Part shown: positions 396 through 20,648 of the stretch, one piece after another
Layout: each line of letters begins with the position of its first letter
Position numbering within the stretch: position 1 is the stretch's first letter
Assembly (NCBI GenBank): GCA_003282145.1
Contig: QBZZ01000003.1
Span: 87,995 to 151,994 of the forward strand
Source of the DNA: SAR116 cluster bacterium AG-337-N21
GTDB lineage: Bacteria > Pseudomonadota > Alphaproteobacteria > Puniceispirillales > Marisalimonadaceae
DNA length: 64,000 nt
Reading direction: 5' to 3'
Notes under the pieces: model-generated
The model's input: the letters and a program-made list of their open reading frames with translations, nothing else
What the model was told of the DNA's origin: nothing
Database searches by the model: none
Translations under genes and position numbers: made by a program

Positions 396-1247
396 TTACA
401 TTTTCTTAAATTTTTTAACCCAATTGCCTGTGAAAAAAATATAAAAGTCCACAATATAAATTAAAAAACTTTTAACTGAAACTAGTATGAAGATATATGG
501 AGTAATAAAAATATCAAGATATAATTGCTCTATAAATATAATTAGCAAAATAAGGTCTACGTTTCTAGCCCTATCGTCAAAAATGTAATATAAAAATTTA
601 AAACGATTGATTAAATTACCAAAATTTGTTTTGGAAAGATTGCTTAACGCTTCCTGAGCTTTAGATTTTGTTTTTGTTTTAATTACATTTATTTCATTAT
701 TTGTAATTTCTCTTAACAATAAATCTGAAGAATATACACTAATTAGTATTGAATTAAATAAACAATATAAAATAACAAAATACAAAAAAACAACATCGGA
801 ATTTTGATTATATGAATACAAGCCCAATCCACAATAAAAAAAAATAGAGTTAACTCGAGCGCCATAAGCATCCAATAAATGTCCAACTAAAGTTTGCTGA
901 TTTTTAAACCTCGCAACTTGGCCATCAGCCCAATCAAATACTCCTTTATTAAATATAAAAAAAGCGCCTAAAAAAATTAAAGGTAAATAATCAGTAGCAA
1001 TACAAATTGAACCTAGAAGACCGAAAGCTATATATAAAAAAGTAGTGGTATTAGCGTTAATTCCCAGATGTAAAAAAATATAAGTAATAAAAATGCTACA
1101 TTCCGCGTAATATTTTGCTTTGAGATAAGTGTATGGTGAAGATCTCCAATTGTTCAAATCAAGTTCAAACTTATCACTTATATAGTCAGACCAATTATAT
1201 TTATAATTTTCTTCTCTAATCTCTGCGTAGGTAGGAATTTTTTTCAT
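396..1247 (-). CDS. CDP-alcohol phosphatidyltransferase-like membrane protein lacking the last motif Asp
   Basis: Integral membrane protein of 283 residues with several hydrophobic segments (about 50-100, 132-175, 228-275). It carries the CDP-alcohol phosphotransferase signature D-xx-DG-xx-AR-x8-G-xxx-D: D105, D108-G109, A112-R113, G122 and D126 are all present. The fourth Asp, expected at position 130, is Ala. In the family the first three Asp bind metal and CDP and the fourth is proposed as the general base, so catalysis is doubtful or differs. In this locus it could move a CMP-activated alcohol or phosphonate, such as an aminoethylphosphonate head group, onto a glycan or lipid; this is inference from context. 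GAGG lies 7 bases before the ATG. Confidence 0.8.
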   Translation of the reverse strand: MKKIPTYAEIREENYKYNWSDYISDKFELDLNNWRSSPYTYLKAKYYAECSIFITYIFLHLGINANTTTFLYIAFGLLGSICIATDYLPLIFLGAFFIFNKGVFDWADGQVARFKNQQTLVGHLLDAYGARVNSIFFYCGLGLYSYNQNSDVVFLYFVILYCLFNSILISVYSSDLLLREITNNEINVIKTKTKSKAQEALSNLSKTNFGNLINRFKFLYYIFDDRARNVDLILLIIFIEQLYLDIFITPYIFILVSVKSFLIYIVDFYIFFTGNWVKKFKKM

Positions 1248-12145: not shown

Positions 12146-14029
12146 CTTATTTTTTCCAGTTGATTTAAAGCAATCCAAAAACCTTCGCCATTGTTCTTAT
12201 GACCTTGCCAAATTTCAGGTATGAAAGAAGCGTTTGGGCACTTTTTATCTAAAATTTGAAATAGTCTTTCAAAATCAACTTCACCCTGATTTATTTGTAA
12301 TCCCTCTCCATTTAGCCCTTTTGCGTCTCCAATATGAAGGTGAGCAGTTATAGGTGCAATGGTTTCAGTAAATTCAAAAAAATCTTTTTTTGAAGTAATT
12401 ACACATTAGCTTTGAATGGGAAATATCAAAGCATAATCGTAAATTTAGTTTTTTGCACCAGTATTTACTTTCTTCTGCATATACAAAGAGATTTTGAAAA
12501 CGTTGACCGCCGAAGTGCCACGGAAAAGGTGCCATAGTCTGGGGGATTAATTCCACCCCATCTAAATCTAATTCTATTAAACTTTTACTAAACATCTTAT
12601 AACATTTATTTTTATCTTTTTGTGAAAGGATCTCATCCATAGTAAATCCACCAATATTTGCTACTATCATTGGTTTTTCACAGTTGACAAAAAATTTCTT
12701 CATTTTTTTTGTCAAATCAATAACCCTTTGAGTTTCTTCTATTGAGTAAACTCTGTATTTCTCGTCTAAAGAGGCTAAATCCATGAGTCGACCTTTTGAA
12801 AACAACTCCGGAGCATGAACTACAAATTGATTTGGGTAAGGGCCCTTAAAAAAATCATTAATATTTAAATTCATATCAGTGTAGGAAAGATGAAACTCAA
12901 AAATATCAGGTTTAATAATTGAATTGTAATATTCAAAGTCATGAAATCTAACTGGAATACCCCAAGGACGATTAAAGCTATAAGCCTTTGGTTTAAACGT
13001 AACCCCATTTATATCGGATTTATAAAAAAAATCTTCTTCTTTAATGTCTCTATTAATTTTTTTACCAAGAAGTTGATGGTAATACTGTGCAGATAAACCT
13101 TGGCCAGGGCTTCTAATTTTTAAATGTTCTTTTTTAATTATTGTACCTTCATTTAAGTGACAATTTGCGACAATGCTTTTTGATAAGTTTTCCCTATTAA
13201 TCATCTCTCCTTGAGACAAGTGTCTTTCATTGGTTGTACCCAGAGCTGCCTCCAATTCTCTTATCCCTTCTAATAAGTGCGTTAATTCTTTTTTTTCAAG
13301 GCTGGCCGCATGATCAGGGCCTTCCATTCTTCTATCTAGTGTGATGTGTCTTTCGATTATTTTAGCGCCTAATGCTACTGCTGCTAGAGATACTGAAGTA
13401 CCTCTTTCATGCCCTGAGTAGCCTACCATTGGATGAATTATTTTTAATCTAGAGAGCCAATTGAGATTTATGTCATGAAAAGGTGCTGGATAAGTGCTGT
13501 TACAGTGTAATAGTGCAAATTCAGAATTAGAACTTTTCAAGTGATTAGTAGTCATTATAATTTCATTTTCTGTGCTCATGCCAGTGGAAATTATTAGTGG
13601 TTTTTTTGTAAGTAAAAGTCTGTCTAGAAGAGGAATATTAGTTAGATCTGCAGAAGCTACTTTAAAGGCTGGTAAATTAAGGCTCTCTAAAATGTCAACA
13701 CTTTTAATATCCCATGGAGTACATAAATATGTAATATCTTTACTTTGACAATATTGAACAATCTTCTTGTGTTGTGAATTTGAAAGCTCAAAGCGTTCTA
13801 AAAGATCTAAAATATATTCAGTACCTAAATCTTGACCATCTTTTTTTAAAGATCTATTCGTGTAAACCTCTTGCATGTTTCTCATTTGAAATTTAACACA
13901 ATCAACACCAGCATCCTTAGCAATATCAATAAGTTCTATGGCAGCATTAACATCACCATTATGGTTGTTACCTATTTCAGCAATTACAAAAATATGATTG
14001 TTACCAATTATTTTATTATCAATTTTCAT
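12142..14029 (-). CDS. NeuB-like ulosonic acid synthase fused to a TIM-barrel epimerase domain, frameshifted
   Basis: The N-terminal 270 residues are a sialic acid synthase-type TIM barrel: FVIAEIGNNHNGD, VKFQMRN, STGMSTENE, VGYSGHERG and HITLDRRMEGPDHAASL. An SAF (antifreeze-like) domain follows at about 275-335. From about 345 a second, xylose-isomerase-like TIM barrel begins. The frame stops at 12374, but one base away it continues with LHIGDAKGLNGEG and FIPEIWQGHKN, the expected end of that barrel, to a TGA at 12142 that overlaps the next start. Dropping one A from the seven-A run at 12376-12382 or its partner at 12385-12391 restores about 628 residues. The synthase condenses PEP with an aldose; the second domain may epimerise or dehydrate the precursor. 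Confidence 0.82.
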
Positions 14030-16771: not shown

Positions 16772-17188
16772 CTATTGTTTAATAGAAAAATTTTTTTTGA
16801 TTTTTTGCGAAAGAGTTTTTAAAACTCTTAATCTTAATTCACTACTAGATATTCCCTTTGTGCGGTCAAAAATTTTCAATCTAGCTTTTCTAACATTATT
16901 TGAATTATCAGTTCCATGTACTAAAAAATCAATATTATGAGTATCAAGAAAATTATCATCAATTAGCCAAGGACTTTCTATCACATCTGAAACATATATA
17001 ATTGAATTTAATATCTTACATCTTTCTTTATAATTTAATTCTGGGGTATAACCCTTAGTTTTTTTTATGTCTTTATCAGAAGTTAAAGCAACAATAACTT
17101 CCCCAAACTTTGATGCTTTCTTAAGAATATTTATATGACCATGATGTATTAATGTAGCTGACATATCTACGAGAATTCTTTTTTTCAT
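16772..17188 (-). CDS. Small cytidylyltransferase-like nucleotidyltransferase (GCT/TagD type)
   Basis: A 138-residue single-domain nucleotidyltransferase of the glycerol-3-phosphate cytidylyltransferase class. The HxGH signature is intact as His15-His16-Gly17-His18 (in TLIHHGHINIL), and the C-terminal ISSSELRLR corresponds to the STTxxxR motif. It would use CTP (or another NTP) to activate a phospho- or phosphono-alcohol. Directly following the aminoethylphosphonate transaminase, it is the best candidate for making CMP-aminoethylphosphonate, as PntC does; the fused PEP-mutase domain in the same operon has lost one His of this motif. Substrate assignment is inference. Confidence 0.83.
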   Translation of the reverse strand: MKKRILVDMSATLIHHGHINILKKASKFGEVIVALTSDKDIKKTKGYTPELNYKERCKILNSIIYVSDVIESPWLIDDNFLDTHNIDFLVHGTDNSNNVRKARLKIFDRTKGISSSELRLRVLKTLSQKIKKNFSIKQ

Positions 17189-17213
17189 TTTTATCCAGTT
17201 GTTATTTTTATAT

Positions 17214-18203
17214 TTAAGATATTCGTAAATTATTATTTATTTCCCCTTTATTACTTTTTAAGTAGACATCTCCTAAATGACATACGACACTATATCCTGG
17301 TTCCAAAGTTCTAGGAATATAAAGAATAGATTTTGAATCAATCGTTGAAATTGTTCCTTTGACTAATGTGCATAAAGTTGGTTGATTTTCTGAAGAATAA
17401 ACGAGCCTATCATTAAATTTATTTAAAAAATCTAATTTTGTAGACTTAACAGCACTTAAAAAATCATTGTAAGAATTAAGGATTAAATCAAGAGAACAAA
17501 TTGAATGATAAGGTCCTGTCATCATTTTATTCAAGTGATTTTTTAAGGAAAGATTAAATGATTTTATTTCGTTATCAGGTTCTGTATTAAAGGACACAAA
17601 TGCTCCTCCAGTTAATCCAAATAAACCTTTACATGAACTAAAGCTAATTGTGTCTGCATATTCGTGATATTTCTCAATGCCTATGGATGCTGTTGCATCT
17701 AACATTAATTTTCCACCAATTTTTTTACAAATATCTTTTAACCTTCGAATATCTATCTTTAAACCTAAACTAGTTTCTGTGTAACAGGCTATGATCCAGT
17801 CAAAATTTTGGTTTATATCTTCAATATTCTCCCAATGGACACTTTTAATTGAATTTATTTTATTAAAAGATTGTTTAGCAATATTAGCCATTGATTTTAC
17901 TCTTTCCGAGTAATAGCCAGTATCAACAACAAGAACTTTTCCATAAGCAAAATTAGAAATCATAACTTCTAACGCCATGCTTCCACTTCCTTGCATACGC
18001 GCTATTTGTTTATGACCAGTTAATTTTTTTAGATTACTCATTACTCTATCTTCAATCTCTGAATAAGATTTATCTCCCCGTCCAAAACACGACTCTAAAC
18101 CTATAATATTCTCTTCACAAAGAGCTGCTGGGCCAGCGGTGAAAATGTGTTTTTGTGAATTTCTTAATTTTATAAATTCTTTAATAGTTATATCATTGTT
18201 CAT
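17214..18203 (-). CDS. Class V aminotransferase, 2-aminoethylphosphonate-pyruvate transaminase type
   Basis: A 329-residue PLP enzyme of the class V group. The N-terminus FTAGPAALCEENI, then SCFGRGD, QGSGSMALEVMI (phosphate-binding region), LMLDATASIG with the Asp under the pyridine ring, and SSCKGLFG with the Schiff-base Lys near residue 189, resemble the transaminase part of phosphonate loci. It should convert phosphonoacetaldehyde and an amino donor to 2-aminoethylphosphonate. I use the ATG at 18203, with GAGAG 9 bases upstream and an 11-base overlap with the decarboxylase gene; an upstream TTG at 18218 is the alternative. It is slightly shorter than the usual 360 or so residues at the C-terminal end. 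Confidence 0.82.
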   Translation of the reverse strand: MNNDITIKEFIKLRNSQKHIFTAGPAALCEENIIGLESCFGRGDKSYSEIEDRVMSNLKKLTGHKQIARMQGSGSMALEVMISNFAYGKVLVVDTGYYSERVKSMANIAKQSFNKINSIKSVHWENIEDINQNFDWIIACYTETSLGLKIDIRRLKDICKKIGGKLMLDATASIGIEKYHEYADTISFSSCKGLFGLTGGAFVSFNTEPDNEIKSFNLSLKNHLNKMMTGPYHSICSLDLILNSYNDFLSAVKSTKLDFLNKFNDRLVYSSENQPTLCTLVKGTISTIDSKSILYIPRTLEPGYSVVCHLGDVYLKSNKGEINNNLRIS

Positions 18204-19341
18204 ATTTAATACTCTCAATAAATTTGTTTAAATTTAAAGCATTTTCTGATGGTTTTAAACTAGGTCTACCTAGATTATCTCTATTGCCGCGCATACACTT
18301 AATTTCTAAAAAATAACTACCTATATACTTGTTAGCTAAACGAATTTCATCAGTGACTGACAATTCATCTTTTACACATATAAATTTCTTATAGCCAAAT
18401 CCATCGGCTATCTTTGATAAATCAATGTCAAATCCTCTTGTTGGCTGTCCTCCTACGGAATCATGGGCTCCATTATTTAAAATAACATGTATCATGTTTG
18501 GAACTCTTGAGCACTCAGCTAATCCTCCCATGTGCATCAAGATAGCACCATCTCCATCTAAACAAAATACTTTATGGTTAGGGAGTTCGTTGGCAATACC
18601 AAGTGCAATTTGTGATGCATGTCCCATTCCACCAACAGTTAAAAAGTCTGTATCGTGGCTCATGTCTAGTTGTTCCCTAATTTCATAAAGCTCTCTTGAA
18701 ATCATGCCTGTAGTTGATACAAAAATACTATTCTTATTTGAATTTCTTACAATCAATTCAATGGCTTTTTCCCTTCTTATAAGGTTTTTTGGAGAAGATA
18801 AATTAATTTTAGCTTTATTATTGAAGGTGTTTTTCTTGAATACTATTGCTACAGGCCTTTTTTCTGTTAAAGCCAGTTCTAAAATATCACTTATTTTTTT
18901 ATCTAAATTATTTGAATTTTGATCTAATACTATATGTGGAATATCCATAATATTTAATGTCTTTAAGGTTATTTGTCCTTGTTTAATGTGTTGAGGCTCA
19001 TCTGAAACTTGCTTATTATTAACAACTTCCCCACGCCATCCTATCAATAACAAGATAGGAATGCTTGCAACTTCTATATCTGCTAGTGAAATAAGAGGAT
19101 TATAAGCATTCCCTAAACCAGAATTTTGCATGTAAACCGCAGGTATTTTTTTAGTTGCAAGATAATAACCTATTCCTAATCCAACAGCAGCCCCTTCATT
19201 ACTAGTAATAATATGCTTGTTTGAGTTCACTTTTTCATTAATTGAGATGTTTAATGATTTTAAAAGTGAATCTGGCACACCACAAAAAAAAGAGACATTA
19301 TTTTTGAATAGCAATTCAATAAATTCATCAGTTGAAATCAT
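18193..19341 (-). CDS. Phosphonopyruvate decarboxylase (ThDP enzyme)
   Basis: A 382-residue thiamine-diphosphate enzyme, the usual length for phosphonopyruvate decarboxylase (sulfopyruvate decarboxylase is the near relative). The N-terminal Pyr domain has the conserved Glu in ITSNEGAAVGLGIGY. The C-terminal PP domain has the GDG...N motif from CLDGDGAILMHMGG (near 258) to ILNNGAHDSVGGQ (near 288). It turns phosphonopyruvate into phosphonoacetaldehyde, pulling the unfavourable PEP mutase reaction forward. The start overlaps the PEP mutase stop by one base (TAATG), and the stop overlaps the transaminase, so the three genes form a tight unit. Confidence 0.9.
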   Translation of the reverse strand: MISTDEFIELLFKNNVSFFCGVPDSLLKSLNISINEKVNSNKHIITSNEGAAVGLGIGYYLATKKIPAVYMQNSGLGNAYNPLISLADIEVASIPILLLIGWRGEVVNNKQVSDEPQHIKQGQITLKTLNIMDIPHIVLDQNSNNLDKKISDILELALTEKRPVAIVFKKNTFNNKAKINLSSPKNLIRREKAIELIVRNSNKNSIFVSTTGMISRELYEIREQLDMSHDTDFLTVGGMGHASQIALGIANELPNHKVFCLDGDGAILMHMGGLAECSRVPNMIHVILNNGAHDSVGGQPTRGFDIDLSKIADGFGYKKFICVKDELSVTDEIRLANKYIGSYFLEIKCMRGNRDNLGRPSLKPSENALNLNKFIESIKYEQ

Positions 19342-20648
19342 TATTCTGTACCGGGAATTAACTTCAGTATTTCTTTTATGCTAATAAGTTTATTTTCAAT
19401 TTCTTTTGATCTATTATGTTTTAAAATACTATATGCTGTGTCGTACATGGCTTTGTACGAAGCTCTCATTAATTGATTGGCATATATTATTATATTAAAC
19501 CCAGCATTTGAGAGATCATCTGAGTAAATCTCGTTAAAACTACTCGGAACACAAATTAGCGGAACATCAGGAAAATTAACGCGGAATTTTTTACCAAATT
19601 CAAGGATTTCGTCAGGGTTCTTTTGACGACTATGTATCATTATACCATCAGCCCCACATTTTACATATTTATTAGCTCTTTTTAAAGCATCATTCATACC
19701 CTTTTCAAGAATTAAGCTCTCAATACGTGCAATGATCATAAAATCCTGGCTAATCTGAGAATTTTTCCCGATTTTAATTTTGTTAGCAAATTCATTCATA
19801 TCTGCCTGAGTTTGTTCAACCTCGTTACCGAATAAGGAATTTTTTTTCAAGCCTGTTTTATCCTCAATTATTACTGCGGATACACCTAGTCTGTCCAAAC
19901 GATTTACTGAATGAATAAAGTGTTCGGGCAAACCACCTGTGTCTAGATCAACTATCATAGGCTTGGAAGTTACCTCAAAAATATCACTAATATTTTTTGC
20001 TCTATGGGACAAATCTAATAACTCAATATCAGGCTTGCCCATCTCTGTAGAATCTGTTAATGAGCTAGACCAAAAACCATCAAACTGACGATTGACTTTA
20101 TCAGAAATATAATGCATTTTTTCTGAAATTAGTGCAGAAATTGGACTGTGTGCTTCTATAATTCGGATTGTTTTTTTACTTTTAATTAGTCTTCTGAGCA
20201 TCCCTTTTCTAATCTCGGGTGCTCCTCTGTTTTTATAATAATCTTCAGAAAGACTAGATGTAGATACATCTTTTGTATATTGTATTTCAATTAATTGACC
20301 ACCATATTCTTCAAGAGCTTTCTTCGAGTTTTCTCTAACCAAGGCTTGAGGACCTGATTTCCAATCATCTCCATGGATTAGATAATCTGGTTTTAATTTT
20401 TTAATGTTAACCGAATAATCCCAGTCTGATTGTTCAATTACCGTATCTACGCCTTTAATGTTTTCAAGTATTTTTTTTCGTTTTTCATAAGTTAAGTAAG
20501 GAAGTCTTTTGTGTTCAGCTAACGCTTTATCATTTAAACATCCAATTATTAGTGTACCGTATTTTTGCGCTTCATTAATAATATTAATTATCCCGTGATG
20601 TATAAAATCACCAGAAACACCAAGATAAACAGTTTTTTTATTTTGCAT
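19341..20648 (-). CDS. pepM: Phosphoenolpyruvate phosphomutase with N-terminal nucleotidyltransferase-like domain
   Basis: Fusion of 435 residues. Residues 1-135 are a cytidylyltransferase-like Rossmann domain (YLGVSGDFIHHGIINII, LIHGDDWKSG, VSTSSLSE) in which the HxGH motif is degraded to His17-His18-Gly19-Ile20. Residues 155-435 are a PEP mutase of the isocitrate lyase superfamily with the diagnostic EDK-x5-NS at 262-271, MIVDLDTGG near 231 and a C-terminal IIIYANQLMR. The enzyme rearranges PEP to phosphonopyruvate, creating the C-P bond that commits carbon to phosphonates. It is the first gene of the operon, with AGAGG 7 bases before ATG and an 80-base AT-rich gap behind pyrC that may hold the promoter. 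Confidence 0.92.
   Translation of the reverse strand: MQNKKTVYLGVSGDFIHHGIINIINEAQKYGTLIIGCLNDKALAEHKRLPYLTYEKRKKILENIKGVDTVIEQSDWDYSVNIKKLKPDYLIHGDDWKSGPQALVRENSKKALEEYGGQLIEIQYTKDVSTSSLSEDYYKNRGAPEIRKGMLRRLIKSKKTIRIIEAHSPISALISEKMHYISDKVNRQFDGFWSSSLTDSTEMGKPDIELLDLSHRAKNISDIFEVTSKPMIVDLDTGGLPEHFIHSVNRLDRLGVSAVIIEDKTGLKKNSLFGNEVEQTQADMNEFANKIKIGKNSQISQDFMIIARIESLILEKGMNDALKRANKYVKCGADGIMIHSRQKNPDEILEFGKKFRVNFPDVPLICVPSSFNEIYSDDLSNAGFNIIIYANQLMRASYKAMYDTAYSILKHNRSKEIENKLISIKEILKLIPGTE

Follow-up and report, generated by a model that had tools for sequence, protein, structure and literature searches.

Gene content of the locus

The window analyzed here is a 64,000-nucleotide stretch of DNA from a SAR116 cluster bacterium, whose source genome assembly is MAG-like with a size of 2.04 Mb and 82% completeness. 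On its minus strand, genes for a PEP mutase, a decarboxylase, an aminotransferase, and a 138-residue nucleotidyltransferase follow each other in this order with overlaps or a 25-base gap, and surface-glycan genes of the heptose/nonulosonate type extend from this four-gene module to a gene of the CDP-alcohol phosphatidyltransferase family. The relevant features are as follows (AEP, aminoethylphosphonate):

19341-20648, minus strand: PEP mutase of 435 residues with an N-terminal PF01467 cytidylyltransferase-like domain (about residues 4-135)
20589-20600, minus strand: HxGH site of the fused domain, reading HHGI (residues 17-20)
20256-20276, minus strand: TxGISST site of the fused domain, reading TKDVSTS (residues 125-131)
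19836-19865, minus strand: EDKTGLKKNS, an intact PEP mutase signature EDKxxxxxNS (residues 262-271)
18193-19341, minus strand: phosphonopyruvate decarboxylase (TIGR03297, 445.3 bits, cut-off 312.5)
17214-18218, minus strand: class-V aminotransferase, probable AEP transaminase of a divergent subfamily
16772-17188, minus strand: 138-residue nucleotidyltransferase, proposed CTP:AEP cytidylyltransferase (PF01467, 58.7 bits)
17135-17146, minus strand: HHGH of the small enzyme, intact (residues 15-18)
16841-16864, minus strand: RTKGISSS of the small enzyme, intact and preceded by D (residues 109-116)
396-1247, minus strand: CDP-alcohol phosphatidyltransferase-family protein (PF01066, 32.5 bits, cut-off 22)

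The open reading frames, strands, and lengths described in a first-pass annotation of this DNA were all recovered, as were its HHGI in the PEP mutase and HHGH in the small enzyme. The mutase scores 394.7 bits against TIGR02320 (cut-off 319.55) and 49.5 bits against PF01467 in its N-terminal part (cut-off 21), and its EDKxxxxxNS is the PEP mutase motif (PMC6697681). The aminotransferase reaches 72.4 bits against TIGR03301, far under the cut-off of 360.8, and its orthologues occupy the equivalent position in related clusters. The small protein is thus encoded beside a PEP mutase, a decarboxylase, and a probable AEP transaminase that matches known ones weakly. Elsewhere in the window, a xylose isomerase-like (AP_endonuc_2) domain is fused to a NeuB-like synthase (12374-14029, minus strand).

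Eroded motifs in the fused domain

The same two-domain architecture is found in Fom1 of Streptomyces wedmorensis (5x3d), with which the window domain aligns over residues 4-134 (E 1.1e-37). Fom1 carries HPGH and YTPGISST and acts on hydroxyethylphosphonate (HEP), whereas the window protein has HHGI and TKDVSTS and is encoded with a transaminase beside the decarboxylase. Neither Fom1-type motif, HxGH with its two histidines or TxGISST, is therefore intact in the window fusion, with GIS replaced by DVS in addition to the exchange of the second His for Ile. The two histidines of HxGH are held in a parallel arrangement that is critical for catalysis (PMC6060094), and HxGH and RTxGISTT belong to the CTP site (PMC2784872). 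Judged by these motifs, the fused domain is probably inactive. In a predicted model of the whole protein (pLDDT 86.9) it is nevertheless well folded; a fold search with this model had only PEP mutases and their relatives among the matches listed and so adds nothing on the fused domain.

A sequencing or assembly error at the HHGI site, for which one could point to a single MAG-like assembly of limited completeness, has a negligible probability in our view. The four codons read cat cac ggg ata (bases 20600-20589, minus strand), and ATA is three base changes away from either His codon (CAT or CAC), which argues against a sequencing slip, as do the open frame and the altered second motif. It is also very improbable that the domain is still an active nucleotidyltransferase despite its Ile. 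One His, K47, R57, and GDDW are still present in an alignment of 84 fusions, but both histidines of HxGH are critical for catalysis (PMC6060094), GIS has changed as well, and both histidines are kept in Fom1 and in 117 of the 148 fusions surveyed below. The first-pass annotation had asked whether active fusions might carry Ile at this site; this was followed in part, and Fom1, the only fusion known to be active, has His.

His loss and separate nucleotidyltransferases

A scan of one genome per species across 84,980 species yielded 80 fusions, and further searches of Spirochaetota, Pelagibacterales, and the class of locus L111 with wider flanks added 63 more; since the loci were selected for their resemblance to the window protein or for their lineage, the proportions given here do not represent PEP mutases as a whole. 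To call partner and branch genes, profiles and thresholds were built for this analysis after the first pattern had been seen, and the flanks to which they were applied are sometimes cut by contig ends. A catalytic His is lost in 31 of 148 PF01467-PEP mutase fusions. In line with the first-pass proposal that catalysis had moved to the free-standing enzyme, a second nucleotidyltransferase lies in the flanks of 30/31 His-less fusions vs 42/117 that keep both histidines, leaving 1 and 75 without one (Fisher 1.9e-10, kinship ignored). The tree of PEP mutases shows four independent losses, all on partner backgrounds, for which chance would give f^4 = 0.038 given that the partner state makes up 44% of tree length, and independent pair tests on the tree all point in the same direction with none opposed, though they are too few for significance. 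The link between erosion and a separate enzyme extends to the whole domain, whose conservation in such clusters is also weaker when PEP mutase identity is matched. At a mutase identity of 0.55-0.60, fused-domain identity is 0.633 for intact fusions without a partner, 0.528 with a cytidylyltransferase (CyTase) partner, and 0.469 for those with lost GIS and LicC; at 0.70-0.75 the corresponding values are 73% for intact partnerless fusions, 68% for fusions of the PntC clade, and 51% for the LicC group.

Fifteen fusions of the first set, two of them from Spirochaetes and the others from Bacteroidales, carry HPGL or HPGI, mostly together with GI(N/E/D)S, and PntC is encoded in the flank of 14, the exception (L098) beginning at a contig end. 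The 614-residue protein at L059 is a PntC-AEPT like 6pd1 (E 7e-257). No PntC was found in the flanks of sister Bacteroidales fusions with HPGH (L084, L090, L100, L110, and L121). Among held-out Spirochaetota, 13/13 His-less fusions come with PntC, and the flanks of two intact GISST fusions have none. The first-pass annotation had set the window against PntC, where the active cytidylyltransferase is fused to the transaminase. This contrast does not stand, because fusions in PntC clusters share the His loss and PntC is rather a parallel: like the window, systems with PntC or PntC-AEPT (Tde1415, 6pd1/6pd2) have a separate AEP cytidylyltransferase next to the transaminase and a fused PF01467 domain without its second His. 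Nor is PntC a comparable HxGH domain, as it belongs to a different family without this motif, PF12804 (MobA/LicC-like) (PMC6697681), whereas the window enzyme is a PF01467 protein unfused to the transaminase.

Pelagibacterales account for two further losses. L248 has SKSN in a fused domain that is eroded throughout, together with a window-type enzyme in the same four-gene order, and the loss at L247 (NDAH) accompanies a tandem duplicate of the same type of domain and not a branch switch. An extra Fom1-type cytidylyltransferase copy lies directly before the PEP mutase at L231, L232, L233, and L247. At L223:7129-8984 (Spirochaetota), the PF01467 part and the mutase are in separate open frames. 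Five fusions (L257, L258, L259, L261, and L262) keep HxGH with GIS replaced (e.g., YTYNEKVK), and no second nucleotidyltransferase was found in their flanks. A G-to-D change in GIS was discarded as a sign of erosion by itself, being present in partnerless and otherwise intact fusions (L057, L064, and L072).

Close relatives of the window fusion

The closest relatives of the window fusion come from Rhodospirillaceae (L044), Methylophilus (L045, L047, and L048), Balneolaceae (L046), and Pelagibacteraceae (L051 and L055), and they form one group in trees built from the mutase part alone (support 89 in a first and 99 in a larger tree). Each of these loci also contains a gene orthologous to that of the small enzyme (broken by stops at L051), the PepM-Ppd-AEPT-NTase order is common to L045-L048, L227, and L248, and the fused domains of L044-L048, L051, and L055 keep HHGH. 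The pairing of the two proteins thus predates the Ile of the window, which is a derived loss, and on this comparison of sequences the loss is recent and local. In the alignment of the second His that the first-pass annotation had suggested, His is usual across fusions, and the window Ile arose late, next to close relatives that have the small enzyme and mostly HHGH. We rejected the idea that a partner always causes the loss, as L044, L046-L048, L051, L055, and L224-L226 keep HHGH beside the same partner; with most relatives doing so, the partner is insufficient for it. At L045:7941-9293 (Methylophilus rhizosphaerae), an in-frame stop separates the cytidylyltransferase domain and the mutase into two open frames. 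A small kinase gene, adenylylsulfate kinase-like by eye, directly follows the small nucleotidyltransferase at L227:6429-6941 and L248:5002-5535.

Hydroxyethylphosphonate and aminoethylphosphonate clusters

Phosphonoacetaldehyde can be reduced to HEP or transaminated to AEP. The comparison of these two branches was conceived last and made on the same set of loci, with companion genes sought within 6 kb. An iron alcohol dehydrogenase accompanies 63/67 intact fusions without a partner, and a transaminase accompanies 0/67 (contig ends truncate three of the remaining four loci, and L236 is unexplained); His-less fusions have a transaminase in 27/31 and a dehydrogenase in 0/31 (L061, L093, and L247 are cut downstream by contig ends and L098 begins at one). 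Across all loci, the dehydrogenase gene lies no more than 100 bp from the decarboxylase gene in 78/87, and a transaminase is present, usually adjoining, in 13/13 readable loci with a window-type enzyme. The tree needs six changes between branches, and wherever erosion differs within a pair it tracks the transaminase (mean 3.1 of 6, none opposed). Three fusions in transaminase clusters have no detected partner. Fusions that lost GIS and kept HxGH are mostly of the Clostridia type, with LicC-like domains in dehydrogenase clusters, and their cause would be redundancy and not a branch switch.

The fused domain of Fom1 uses HEP (PMC6697681). The simplest account of these patterns is that the fused domain is an HEP enzyme with no purpose left in AEP clusters, its place there having been taken by PntC or the window-type enzyme. 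The proposed relocation of catalysis would then be right in that erosion tracks a separate nucleotidyltransferase, but it was probably no simple move, as the intact domain belongs to the HEP branch and the separate enzymes mostly to the AEP branch.

The small nucleotidyltransferase

The first and last residues of HxGH, R109, T110, and S114 are invariant in 14 orthologues of the small enzyme. It matches PF01467 only and is no member of the PF12804/LicC-like group, and it has the HxGH, the RTxG(I/V)S(S/T), and the fold of CCT/ECT/GCT-type cytidylyltransferases; its model (pLDDT 92) has CCT, Fom1, and ECT as closest structures. The nearest solved sequences are human Pcyt2 (5e-19), the Fom1 domain, and CCT, followed by TagD (1coz). 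TagD resembles the small enzyme in size, fold, and its HxGH and RTxGIS motifs but is a weaker match (E 1.1e-9), and with 51.2 bits the window protein stays far under the cut-off of 165.4 for TIGR01518 (glycerol-3-phosphate cytidylyltransferase). AEP is the phosphonate analogue of phosphoethanolamine, and Pcyt2/ECT (3elb), as the closest solved sequence, uses this phosphate analogue of AEP.

Relatives of the small enzyme with 51-55% identity were found in two genomes without PEP mutase (G106 and G041), which means that the substrate of the family need not be a phosphonate. In G106, the orthologue (L126:9858-10331) is closest to TagD among solved structures and lies near a protein that starts with an AYLDPGTGS stretch and is PF04464-like, an assignment resting on resemblance to the L097 protein. 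In G041 (P0001), the relative (L127:8983-10437) is fused C-terminally to a CDP-alcohol phosphatidyltransferase, forming a one-chain Kennedy-like pair. With such neighbors in genomes lacking PEP mutase, phosphate-ester metabolism is the probable source from which the family was recruited. On plasmids, the only relatives of the small enzyme were two distant ones (29-32% identity), and almost all PEP mutases lacked a matching N-terminal domain; the search of viral contigs found no such relatives.

Discussion

We suggest that AEP, probably destined for a surface glycan, is both made and activated by the products of the four genes. PEP mutase, phosphonopyruvate decarboxylase, and the transaminase would act in turn before the small HxGH cytidylyltransferase forms CMP-AEP. 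The fused domain would descend from a Fom1-type HEP cytidylyltransferase, in an ancestral cluster whose iron alcohol dehydrogenase (HEP) had given way to a transaminase (AEP). A separate AEP cytidylyltransferase may then have been recruited, namely PntC in Bacteroidales and Spirochaetes and, in the clade of the window, a small Pcyt2/CCT-like enzyme from the phosphoethanolamine/phosphocholine-type family; the fused domain would thereupon have lost its constraint and, in the window lineage, its second catalytic His. Within this scheme, which substrates are used and in what order the events took place are inferred. As a whole, the explanation that an old HEP cytidylyltransferase domain became redundant with the switch to AEP, activated by a separate enzyme, is the one we favor and consider reasonably probable. 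Given that its predicted fold is kept, the fused domain may still serve the folding or oligomerization of the mutase.

Two other explanations concern what either nucleotidyltransferase does. The small enzyme might activate another phosphate for the same glycan (phosphoethanolamine, glycerol 3-phosphate, or a sugar-linked one), with AEP left unactivated or activated elsewhere. The relatives from genomes that lack PEP mutase, of which one is joined to a CDP-alcohol phosphatidyltransferase and the TagD-like one lies near a PF04464 glycerophosphotransferase, fit this idea, but the AEP-type transaminase that accompanies the enzyme in every readable phosphonate locus, usually as the next gene, and the window enzyme's own proximity to Pcyt2 and distance from TagD make it unlikely. 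We give still less credence to the eroded domain being kept as a pseudoenzyme, either paired with the free cytidylyltransferase or holding its substrate, close to the structural or substrate-holding role suggested in the first-pass annotation. The PEP mutase would then carry a scaffold or regulator for activation of the end product, in an ECT-like active/inactive pair spread over two proteins. The domain has indeed been retained and not deleted and folds well in the model, and the family is dimeric, with ECT pairing two cytidylyltransferase repeats (PMC2784872, PMC3588000). However, ECT has both repeats in one chain whereas the window has one free and an eroded one on another enzyme, and the weaker domain conservation in clusters with a partner and the near-complete erosion at L248 look like decay.

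If the favored explanation of a redundant HEP domain is correct, it bears on how phosphonate clusters are read. According to the parts of Rice et al. 2019 drawn on here, PF01467 is fused to 23.6% of PEP mutases and both families to 2.9%, fused and separate nucleotidyltransferases can occur in one cluster, and such a fusion is taken to indicate activation of the product by the fused domain (PMC6697681). The terms "HxGH" and "inactive" are absent from that text, and in these parts of it we found no mention of active-site loss or a tie to the branch (PMC6697681); no discussion of fused nucleotidyltransferases was found in the marine phosphonate papers examined. Our survey suggests that the rule of fusion meaning activation is valid for HEP-type clusters and often breaks down for AEP-type ones, in which the fused domain resembles a relic and the separate enzyme does the work. 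An intact fused domain with a dehydrogenase would then predict HEP, and an eroded domain with a transaminase and a second nucleotidyltransferase would predict AEP. The proposed AEP cytidylyltransferase would be unrelated to PntC and present in marine bacteria including Pelagibacterales.

It is possible that the CDP-alcohol phosphatidyltransferase-family protein at 396-1247 is the acceptor-side transferase for CMP-AEP and thus a candidate phosphonate transferase. As a general companion this family was rejected, being present in 2/18 loci with a CyTase partner and 4/76 without a partner. Its subfamily occurs in four PEP mutase loci (the window at 396-1247 on the minus strand, L235:6975-7847, L068:10395-11192, and L228:5980-6786), and in the three where the motif was read (the window, L235, and L068) the fourth Asp is replaced by Ala (GHxLDxYGA).
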